A stretch of 64,000 nt of DNA, taken from Prochlorococcus sp. AG-442-N17 (GTDB taxonomy: Bacteria; Cyanobacteriota; Cyanobacteriia; PCC-6307; Cyanobiaceae). A program made the translations under genes and the position numbers. The number at the start of each line of letters is the position of its first letter. Position 1 is the stretch's first letter. The notes below the pieces were generated by a model. That model saw only the letters and a program-made list of their open reading frames with translations. It was not told the origin of the DNA and ran no database searches. Positions 13,852 through 17,992 of the stretch are shown in pieces. The stretch covers positions 1 to 64,000 of the forward strand of contig QCPY01000006.1 of NCBI GenBank assembly GCA_003212375.1, read 5' to 3'.

Positions 13852-14448
13852 TTACTTCTGTTCTGCCATATTTAGAAAATTACTAATTAATTTATGACCA
13901 AATTGTGTTAAAACGCTTTCTGGATGAAATTGAACACCATGTAAATTTTTATATTTTTTATGAGAAATAGCCATAATAGTTGAATCTTCTAGCGTTGCTG
14001 TTATCTCAAAACACGATGGGAGTGAATCTGAATCCACAATTAAACTATGATATCTTGTAGCCACAAATGGACTTTCAATATCTTTGAATAATCCTTTTTT
14101 ATTATGAATAATTCTTGAGGTTTTTCCATGCATTAATTCTTTAGCAACTATTACTTTACCGCCATAAGCTTGGGCTAACGCTTGATGGCCTAAACATACT
14201 CCTAATGTTGGAATTTCTTTTGATAAGTTTTTAAGAATTGGTAAACAAATGCCAGACTGATCAGGATTTCCAGGCCCAGGAGATAACAAAATACCATCTG
14301 GATTAATTTGACTTATTTCTTCTAAAGTAATTTCATCATTTCTTTTCACTATTAATTCTTTAGTTATTTCATGCTCGACAGATAGTTCTCCTAAATATTG
14401 AACAAGGTTATAAGTAAAACTATCGTAGTTATCAATAACAAGAAACAT
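13852..14448 (-). CDS. trpG: Anthranilate/aminodeoxychorismate synthase component II (glutamine amidotransferase)
   Basis: IDNYDSFTYNLVQYL, LLSPGPGNP, GVCLGHQALAQ, GVQFHPES. Confidence 0.92.
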   Translation of the reverse strand: MFLVIDNYDSFTYNLVQYLGELSVEHEITKELIVKRNDEITLEEISQINPDGILLSPGPGNPDQSGICLPILKNLSKEIPTLGVCLGHQALAQAYGGKVIVAKELMHGKTSRIIHNKKGLFKDIESPFVATRYHSLIVDSDSLPSCFEITATLEDSTIMAISHKKYKNLHGVQFHPESVLTQFGHKLISNFLNMAEQK

Positions 14449-14460
14449 ATTTCTGTGAAT

Positions 14461-14871
14461 TTAGAATAACAATTTTATTTTAGGAAAAAAGATATATAAG
14501 GCAATAATAACAGAATTAATGGAAGCTAATAATACAGCTCCTGCGGAAGTATCTTTTGCAATTTTAGCCAAACTTCTAAATTCTTTTTTCACTACTAAAT
14601 CAACTATTGATTCTATAGAAGTATTTAATACTTCCAATATTAAAACAGACATAATTGTGGCAACCAAAATCATATAATGACTTAAATTGATTTGCAGTAA
14701 AAAACCAATTATTAAACTTATAACTGCAAAAATTAATTGAATTTTAAAATTTCTTGAAGTTTTTAAAACATAACTAATACCACAGAAAGCATACTTAAAA
14801 CTTATAAATACATTATTAGAAGTTTTGTATGATTCTTTTCTATTTTCTAAATAGTTTATTTTTTTTTCCAT
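14461..14871 (-). CDS. dgkA: Diacylglycerol kinase (prokaryotic DgkA)
   Basis: EVLNTSIESIVDLV...AKDTSAGAVL DGKA signature. Confidence 0.9.
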   Translation of the reverse strand: MEKKINYLENRKESYKTSNNVFISFKYAFCGISYVLKTSRNFKIQLIFAVISLIIGFLLQINLSHYMILVATIMSVLILEVLNTSIESIVDLVVKKEFRSLAKIAKDTSAGAVLLASINSVIIALYIFFPKIKLLF

Positions 14872-14877
14872 TGATTT

Positions 14878-15417
14878 TTAATCTAATCGAGTAATTAAAT
14901 ATTCTTGGAAATTTAACATATTTTCTAAATCATGTTCATTATTATGTTCCCATCCCAAAAGATGTAAAAATCCATGACTAGCCAACCAAATCATCTCTCT
15001 AAGGATTGAATGTTTATATTCATAAGATTGCTCAAGTGCCATCTCTAATGATATAAATATATCTCCCAACTCTATATGATCTAAATTATTTAGAGATTCA
15101 TCAGAAATAATTGGAAAAGATAGAACATCAGTTGGACCATTTTTTTGCATCCATTTCTTATTCAAAGAAGCAATTTCTTGATTAGATATTATCTGTAAGC
15201 CTAATGAAAAAGATTTTTTTTCAAAAATATAATTCGGTAATTCGTAATCCTCTTTTTTTAATATTGTATTTATCCAAGATAAAAAAACTTTCTCCCAAAA
15301 AATAGATTCAAAAATAAGCTTAGTTTTAGTATCTTTTAAATCATTTGAAAATTGAGAAAAATCATGACATTGAAAAACCAAATCTAAATTTATTTCAGAA
15401 ATAATTTTTTCTTTCAT
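14878..15417 (-). CDS. ybeY: Endoribonuclease YbeY (16S rRNA maturation)
   Basis: [26 protein letters not shown] zinc motif. Confidence 0.93.
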
Positions 15418-15423
15418 ACATTC

Positions 15424-15606
15424 TTAAACTGGAATATTGGGCTTACCTATTGTGGCCACAAGTATTAATATCCCAATTAAAACTAGAAAGGTTATTGAAA
15501 AATGAGAAATACTTTTTGAGCCTTTCCTTACCATATTTCTCATAGCAAGCTTTATAAAGCTTGGAGGAGAAACTTTTTTTTCTACAATTTCGTTTTTATT
15601 TTCCAT
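15424..15606 (-). CDS. Small membrane protein, DUF3285-like
   Basis: 60-aa ORF with PSFIKLAMRNMVRKGSKSISHFSITFLVLIGILILVA; position between prfB and ybeY typical of cyanobacteria. Confidence 0.75.
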   Translation of the reverse strand: MENKNEIVEKKVSPPSFIKLAMRNMVRKGSKSISHFSITFLVLIGILILVATIGKPNIPV

Positions 15607-15609
15607 TAG

Positions 15610-16732
15610 TTATTCAATAGATTCGTGAGAAGAAATATTCATACGTAATAATTCATGAATAAATGGTTCAATTCCACCATCTAAAACACTATTTAACTCG
15701 TTAGTCTCCTGCATAGTCCTAAGATCTTTTACCATTTGATAGGGATGGAAAACATAATTTCTTATTTGATTGCCCCATGCAGCTTCCACAATATCACCTT
15801 TTATATCAGCGACTTCTGCAGCTCGTTGTTCTTTAGCAATCACTAATAGTTTAGACTTTAGAAGTAACATAGCTTTTTCTTTATTTTGTAATTGAGATCT
15901 TTCTTGGGTACATCTTACTGAAATCCCTGAAGGCAAATGAACAATTCTCACTGCTGTTTCTACTTTATTAACATTTTGTCCTCCAGCTCCACCGGATCTA
16001 CTCGTTGTAATTTCTAAATCTTTTTCAGGTATATCAAGTGAAATATTATCATCTAATTTTGGCATGACCTCTACCCCAGCAAAGCTGGTTTGTCTTTTTC
16101 CATTGGCATTAAAAGGAGAAATTCTTACTAATCTATGAGTCCCTTTTTCATGTTGCAGATAGCCGTATGCATATTTTCCATCAATTTCAAAAGTTACACT
16201 TTTAATACCTGCTTCTTCTCCTTGAGATAATTCGTTAATGACAAGGCTCATTTGATTATTATCGGCCCATCTTGAATACATTCTCAATAAAATTTCTACC
16301 CAATCCTGCGCATCTGTTCCACCAGCACCTGCGTTAATAGAAACTACTGCTCCTTCCTTATCGTATTCACCACATAACAATCTTTCAAATTCCCATTTAT
16401 CTAAATTCTCTCTTAATTTCTTCAATCCCTGCTGGGATTCTAAAATCATTTCCTCTTCAGGTTCTAAAGAATAAAGCTCAAGAGAGGCATTTGCATCAGA
16501 AATAAAAGTTTTCCATTTATCTAACAATTCGAGTTGTGCTTTGACATCATCAAGTATTAACATTTGCTTTTTAGCTTCTTCTTGATTTTCCCAAAATGCA
16601 GGCTGAGCAGAAATTTGCTCTAACTCTTTCCTTTTTGCTTTTAATCTTGGAACGTCAAAGACAATCCTGAGCATTACCCAGGCGCTCTGTTAGTTCGGAA
16701 AGATCTTTTTTGAAATTTGTAATATCTATCAA
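15610..16732 (-). CDS. prfB: Peptide chain release factor 2, made by +1 programmed frameshift (zero-frame leader 16732..16655, main frame to 15610)
   Basis: [17 protein letters not shown] motif. Leader [25 protein letters not shown] ends at TGA inside CTTTGAC; +1 frame continues [15 protein letters not shown]. The ORF track shows only 15610..16674. Confidence 0.94.
16654..16660 (-). other. prfB +1 frameshift slippery site CTTTGAC (reverse strand) with upstream SD-like AGGA
   Basis: Reverse-strand sequence GCT CAG GAT TGT CTT TGA C, same layout as the established prfB autoregulatory frameshift site. Confidence 0.93.
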
Positions 16733-16808
16733 AATAGAATTTAATCGTTATTTATAATCTAACAAGCACATTTGTTTAATAGTATAAACTAAGTATTATT
16801 TTTAAAAA

Positions 16809-17063
16809 ATGTCTAAAGTTGAAATTTATACTTGGCAATACTGCCCATTCTGTATTCGAGCAAAATCACTACTCAAGAAAAAAAATGTAAATTTTACAGA
16901 ATATAAAATTGATGGCGACGAAGATGCCAGAGCATTGATGATTGAAAGAGCTGATGGGAGAAGAACATTACCACAAATATTTATAGATAATGAGGGTATC
17001 GGAGGCTGCGATGATCTCTACACATTAGAAAATGAAAATAAATTAGAAGCATTATTAAACTAG
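16809..17063 (+). CDS. grxC: Glutaredoxin 3
   Basis: [17 protein letters not shown] active site; TLPQIFID. Confidence 0.95.
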
Positions 17064-17068
17064 ATCTT

Positions 17069-17992
17069 ATGAAATTTCTATTCGTAATAGATCCAATTAA
17101 AAATATAAATCCTTTAAAAGATTCAACTGCTGCTTTAATGCAAGCATCATCAAAAAAAAATATTGAAATCTGGAGTTGTACTCCTCAAGATCTTGAAGCT
17201 AGAGGTGATGAAGTATGGGCATCCTCCGTAAAAGTTGAAGTAAATCCGTGGATTTCTTTCAAAGAGAATGATTGCATACCTCTCGCCGAATTTAATTGCA
17301 TTTGGATGAGAAAAGATCCTCCTGTAAATGAGGCTTATTTATATGCAACCCATCTTTTAGAAGTTGCCGAAAGAAAAGGAGTAAAAGTAATTAACAAACC
17401 CTCTTCGTTAAGAGCATGGAATGAAAAGCTAGGTGCTTTAAGATACAGCCACTTAATGGCACCTACAATAGTTGCGAGTAAGGTAAAAGATCTTATTAAT
17501 TTTGCAAATATAAATAATGAAGTAGTCATAAAACCTCTTGGAGGGAAAGGTGGTCAAGGTGTTATAAGGATAAATAAAAATTCTCCAGGAATTAAATCAA
17601 TCATTGAATTAATCACTTCTCAAGAAGAATTACCCGTTATGATGCAAAAATTTATTCCTGAAGTCATAGAGGGTGATAAAAGAATAATTATCGTAAACGG
17701 AGAAGCAATAGGATCTATAAATAGGATTCCTCAAGGAGGTGATTTTAGGAGTAATTTAGCGATGGGAGGGAAGGCTGAACCCACATTATTAACAGAAAAA
17801 GAAAAAAGTATCTGCTCAGAATTATCTCAACACTTCAAAGATGAAGGTTTATTTTTTGTGGGTATTGATGTAATAAATGGAATGCTTAGCGAGATTAATG
17901 TAACAAGTCCAACAGGTTTAAGAGAAATAGAAAATTTATCCAATAAGAATGTTTCAGTGGAAGTTATTGAAAAATTAGTAGAAATTATCTAG
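17069..17992 (+). CDS. gshB: Glutathione synthetase
   Basis: [52 protein letters not shown]; adjacent to grxC. Confidence 0.96.

Follow-up and report, generated by a model that had tools for sequence, protein, structure and literature searches.

The upstream stimulator of the prfB frameshift in the Cyanobacteriia is probably, in the main, an mRNA hairpin and no longer a strong duplex between a Shine–Dalgarno (SD) sequence and the anti-SD of the ribosome. We describe this for a Prochlorococcus gene found in a window of 64,000 nucleotides (the whole stretch of DNA that was analysed) and for its relatives. The architecture of the frameshift, the hairpin with its conservation and its covariation, and the replacement of the strong SD along the phylogeny can all be seen directly. 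With less confidence, we think it on balance likely that an ancestor of the Cyanobacteriia swapped an mRNA:rRNA stimulator for an mRNA hairpin. If so, no earlier case would be known in nature of a bacterial +1 frameshift driven by an upstream hairpin, and this one would be class-wide. The RF2 frameshift itself is already known; what would be new is the proposed exchange of the SD for a hairpin.

Reading frames and conservation of the frameshift

RF2 frameshifting is a textbook example of autoregulatory recoding, with AGGGGG-UAU-CUU-UGA-C as the E. coli type. The gene considered here occupies positions 16732-15610 on the minus strand, as do all of the features that follow. Its leader (frame 0, 16655..16732) opens with a TTG at 16732-16730, runs for 25 codons and stops at an in-frame TGA. 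The slip site CUU_U, that is the P-site Leu codon and the first base of the UGA, lies at 16657..16660 and is conserved in the anchored sites. In the DNA, CTT is at 16660-16658, the in-frame TGA at 16657-16655 and a C at 16654, and the UGA with this C (16654..16657) forms a weak termination context. The RF2 body, from DVPRLK... to its stop (15610..16656, TIGR00020), is in the +1 frame relative to the short leader that ends at this UGA. CUU_U stands directly before UGA and then C; L367 has A for C. This C is near-universal; U takes its place in the sister-class genomes L358-L360.

A mechanical ORF call opens the gene differently, at an ATG (16672..16674). The product of this ORF (15610-16674) is recognisably RF2, with a TIGR00020 score of 451.6 bits (cut-off 370). 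With the leader joined to the body the score rises to 458.6 bits, and the alignment then starts at profile position 2, versus 12 for the listed ORF. Across the shift the residue order is Leu (from CUU) and then Asp, which gives ...QDCL-DVPR and not ...FDVPR. The sequence bears out the original prediction, which read prfB as a programmed +1 frameshift from a TTG leader through CTTTGAC into the RF2 body. It was also right that the listed ORF is mis-started. Initiation at the ATG was considered and rejected: this codon begins inside the hairpin loop described below and is unconserved as a start elsewhere in the Cyanobacteriia, where its context is absent from most sites, and the TTG leader is conserved. 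Where the prediction erred was in placing this ATG in the wrong frame; the codon lies before the shift but already reads in the RF2 (+1) frame.

The gene neighbourhood (13852-17992) was annotated by eye from the ORF list. Downstream of prfB on the same strand are a 60-aa membrane-type ORF and ybeY-, diacylglycerol kinase- and trpG-like genes. Diverging from it upstream are glutaredoxin-like and glutathione-synthetase-like genes.

We gathered the 5′ ends of prfB from genomes of the same genus, family and class, found by protein similarity alone. In 155 anchored sites CTTTGA occupies one and the same position, and the one record that fails (L159) is at a contig edge. The same holds for 60 further class-level, 10 deep-branching and 14 additional sites, and CUU_U is also found in 20 sites from sister classes. 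As CTTTGA recurs at one place in all of the anchored sites, the frameshift is not a matter of chance, and a sequencing error or a pseudogene is ruled out on the same grounds. The start is equally stable: the leader peptide is conserved, TTG is found at -24 codons in 64/64 same-genus loci, TTG or GTG is found there across the family, and in 52 of the 53 full-length loci the leader TTG is the sole ATG, GTG or TTG in the leader frame. Judging from these comparisons, prfB here is expressed via an ancient and ordinary RF2 autoregulatory +1 frameshift at CUU_UGA_C. Such a circuit has been reported for 64% of bacterial genomes (PMC12421855).

Two genomes host additional prfB-like genes. In one, a divergent copy adjoins the normal prfB (G456:C1:4524967-4525983); it scores 333.5 bits, below the family cut-off, and has one internal TGA. 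The other (G072) has a weaker tandem copy too.

A covarying hairpin upstream of the slip site

Upstream of the slip site the transcript can form the hairpin CCUGGGU-AAU-GCUCAGG (16666..16682), in which 16682-16676 pair with 16672-16666 to give a 7-bp stem closed by a 3-nt loop. This stable hairpin ends a few nucleotides from the E-site codon, with the stem exactly 5 nt upstream of CUU. An SD-like AGGA (16665..16668) overlaps the 3′ arm of the hairpin, which contains its AGG. The original prediction had noted an AGGA just upstream of the slip site, as at the established RF2 sites. The AGGA is indeed present; however, its AGG belongs to the 3′ arm of the hairpin, which is conserved and covaries, and the AGGA is set one nucleotide nearer to CUU than the AGGGGG of the E. 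coli type.

In the Cyanobacteriia the consensus before the slip site is CGCCTGGGYnnnRCYCAGGAnTRYCTTTGA, and that of the hairpin is CCUGRGY-NNN-RCYCAGG. Among 226 sites from the class all seven pairs can form in 205 and six in a further 18, so that 223 have at least 6/7, and the distance of 5 nt between stem and CUU is unchanged in every one. By comparison, 1.6% of random 14-mers of matching base composition reach 6/7 pairs. A chance hairpin is ruled out by the window itself, where prfB is the sole one of 65 CTTTGA sites with at least 6/7 stem pairs. The stem consensus is likewise unique in the window, although as a palindrome it matches both strands and is hence counted twice. The outer five pairs are recovered independently by RNAalifold.

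The hairpin is degraded in two small-genome lineages. One (L127, 290-320, G123) has 5/7 pairs and AAGA for AGGA; the other (L137/L376, G084) has 4/7 pairs. Presumably both still frameshift despite the degraded stem, and they seem to be natural cases of a decaying stimulator.

The variation between sites respects the pairing. Standard pairs fill 96.1% of the cells from 81 distinct sites; shifting the partner by one base brings this down to 45.0% and 54.7%. Both partners have changed in 34 cells, a count reached by 0/500 shuffles. Independent-pair sign tests on strongly supported branches yield too few events with such short sequences. We therefore used a null in which each column's own substitutions are placed randomly on a tree for which the site itself was not used. 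Under this null the association has a p-value of about 0.013, and the individual pairings G/A-18:C/U-10 and Y-16:R-12 have p-values of 0.0005 and 0.0035, respectively. Position -18, the first base of a Gly/Ser codon, combines with -10, the third base of an Ala/Thr codon, as G-C, G-U or A-U and never as A-C. Position -16, a synonymous Gly third base, tracks -12, the first base of a Thr/Ala codon, mostly as U with A and C with G. These compensatory changes indicate selection for pairing. They come from the 2/7 pairs with enough variation to show covariation; in the outer four there is hardly any change. Because just two pairs are informative, the outer stem may also have roles at the level of its sequence.

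Codon choice carries a similar signal. CGC-CTG is fixed in 53/53 sites from the genus. The genome is small and AT-rich (the window has 31% GC), and in the window CTG accounts for 2.7% of Leu codons and CGC for 2.0% of Arg codons. None of the other prfB codon columns holds CTG or CGC in at least 90% of genomes. Taken together, these patterns argue that the hairpin is selected at the RNA level.

Could the hairpin be incidental? On this alternative, which we regard as unlikely, the weak SD drives an ordinary RF2 frameshift by AGGA:anti-SD pairing, and the hairpin is a by-product of constraint on the codons or on the peptide R-L-G-x-x-Q-D-Y/C-L. Conservation of the leader peptide fits such constraint. 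AGGA hardly varies, being conserved almost to the same degree as the stem, and its pairing with the anti-SD may therefore still count. The genome's own 16S retains the anti-SD CCTCCT, with CCUCC at the 3′ end, so the ribosome could still pair with an SD. That said, there is covariation between the pairing partners, one case being a synonymous Gly third base and the opening base of a Thr/Ala codon, and the rare CGC-CTG is fixed in AT-rich genomes. Furthermore, in two deep lineages (L365 and L373) CAG has become CGG, so that GGGA replaces AGGA, and a U-G pair keeps the stem. A model with a weak SD and nothing else is insufficient, as it leaves the covariation and the frozen rare codons unexplained. 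We continue to favour the hairpin as the main stimulator.

Loss of the strong SD

The site shares much with prfB of the E. coli type: the gene, a leader of about 25 codons, CUU_U, an in-frame UGA-C, an E-site codon of the UAU/UGU type and the RF2 body in the +1 frame. What differs is the region just upstream. Here the SD is cut to AGGA and, compared with the canonical AGGGGG, has moved one nucleotide towards the slip codon, its duplex with the anti-SD is predicted at -4.1 kcal/mol versus -8.7 kcal/mol for E. coli (L375), and a conserved 7-bp hairpin overlaps it. The energies agree with the original prediction that the SD-like element is the weaker of the two. A strong internal SD (AGGGGG or AGGAGG) 3 nt before CUU is not found, just AGGA shifted by one base. 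As the strong SD is missing from an otherwise intact architecture, we treat the site as a variant and not as a canonical RF2 frameshift. In E. coli prfB itself, the sequence right before AGGGGG could fold into a short stem, GGAACG...CGTTCT (about -5.8 kcal/mol), that does not overlap the SD.

The difference holds for the class as a whole. The mean energy of the anti-SD duplex is -4.17 kcal/mol in the Cyanobacteriia versus -8.65 kcal/mol in the sister classes, and that of the hairpin segment is -9.50 versus -1.79 kcal/mol. The sister classes are non-photosynthetic. At their 20 sites, which belong to the same phylum but lie outside the class, the SDs are strong, mostly AGGAGG, AAGGAG or AGGGGG, and the stem is absent, with 1-5 pairs. 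We also scanned GTDB 220, with one genome per species, for the full motif. This gave at least 118 matches; among the matches listed, all are from Cyanobacteriota, 117 are confirmed prfB sites and 1 is cut by the locus end, and many Prochlorococcus records with the same site are included. As far as sampled, the weakening of the SD and the gain of the hairpin appear to coincide at the base of the Cyanobacteriia.

The energies bear on a further reading, in which the hairpin acts negatively, or as a regulated element, by hiding AGGA from the anti-SD, with frameshifting set by the balance of stem and SD duplex after a ribosome has passed. The AGG does lie inside the 3′ arm, and a hairpin of about -9.5 kcal/mol would outcompete an AGGA:UCCU duplex of about -4.2 kcal/mol. 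However, an essential factor that still relied on its SD would be expected to retain the strong ancestral one, and L365 and L373 keep the stem while AGGA changes. We consider this reading quite unlikely.

It is highly improbable, in our view, that the motif is no frameshift stimulator and has some other RNA-level role, for example as a protein or small-RNA site or in mRNA stability. The outer stem sequence is near invariant, beyond the needs of pairing, and an Rfam search finds no matching family, both of which would suit such a role. What ties the hairpin to the frameshift instead is the 5-nt distance to the slip codon, fixed in every site, together with the fact that the motif arose where the SD stimulator vanished and in the same place. 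We therefore retain the hairpin as a candidate frameshift stimulator.

Did the SD weaken at prfB because this lineage makes little use of SDs in general? The original prediction noted that strong SDs are often lacking here, and the window agrees: SD pairing is not enriched at the ATG starts of 52 long ORFs (10%, against 13% for control stretches). The Bacteroidia are also SD-poor, and the studied example, F. johnsoniae, has a perfect SD at its prfB site (PMC8710568). As F. johnsoniae keeps its SD, the change from SD to hairpin is not a simple result of SD disuse.

A possible mechanism and its implications

In E. coli the SD duplex, with its short spacing, holds up the ribosome and loosens pairing in the P site, and tRNA-Leu moves from CUU onto UUU. 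We propose that the cyanobacterial hairpin may act at the same step. A ribosome translating the leader would melt the stem. With CUU in the P site and UGA in the A site awaiting scarce RF2, the 5′ arm would already be out of the exit channel, and could re-pair with the 3′ arm in the cleft that usually holds the SD helix. Closure of the stem would tug the mRNA in the 5′ direction and weaken P-site pairing, which would make it easier for tRNA-Leu to leave CUU for UUU. What remains of the SD, AGGA, may help through weak pairing with the anti-SD. Feedback by RF2 is assumed from the conserved UGA-C. For cyanobacteria, then, we infer from sequence the refolding on the ribosome, the stimulation and the RF2-dependent regulation.

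Related behaviour has been described in other systems. An engineered hairpin directly upstream of CUUUGA, which mimics the SD:anti-SD duplex in vitro, gave about 60% of the +1 stimulation of the SD on E. coli 70S ribosomes, in the absence of RF2 only, and a destabilised version gave much less (PMC6321510). That hairpin was a designed 12-bp stem in a reporter; the one described here is natural and class-wide, with 7 bp, and lies 5 nt from the P codon. A further parallel is the 5′ stem-loop of T4 gene 60, where re-pairing of the mRNA outside the exit channel, behind the ribosome, is proposed to pull the mRNA in the 5′ direction and to serve as the motor of bypassing (PMC5009743). Bypassing in gene 60 covers a long gap and relies on a nascent-peptide signal, whereas here the slip is of a single nucleotide.

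We found no description of a cyanobacterial hairpin in the RF2 literature covered, the scope of which does not extend to the first multi-species RF2 survey (Baranov et al. 2002). A recent survey calls the AGGGGG-like SD hyper-conserved, and cyanobacteria go unmentioned in its main text (PMC12421855).

If true, a class-wide swap of stimulators would mean that an SD duplex and an RNA hairpin are interchangeable in evolution. Predictors of frameshifting that are based on the SD may misjudge cyanobacterial prfB. Furthermore, these genes would offer a natural system for asking if tension in the mRNA, or its refolding, is what drives the +1 slip.
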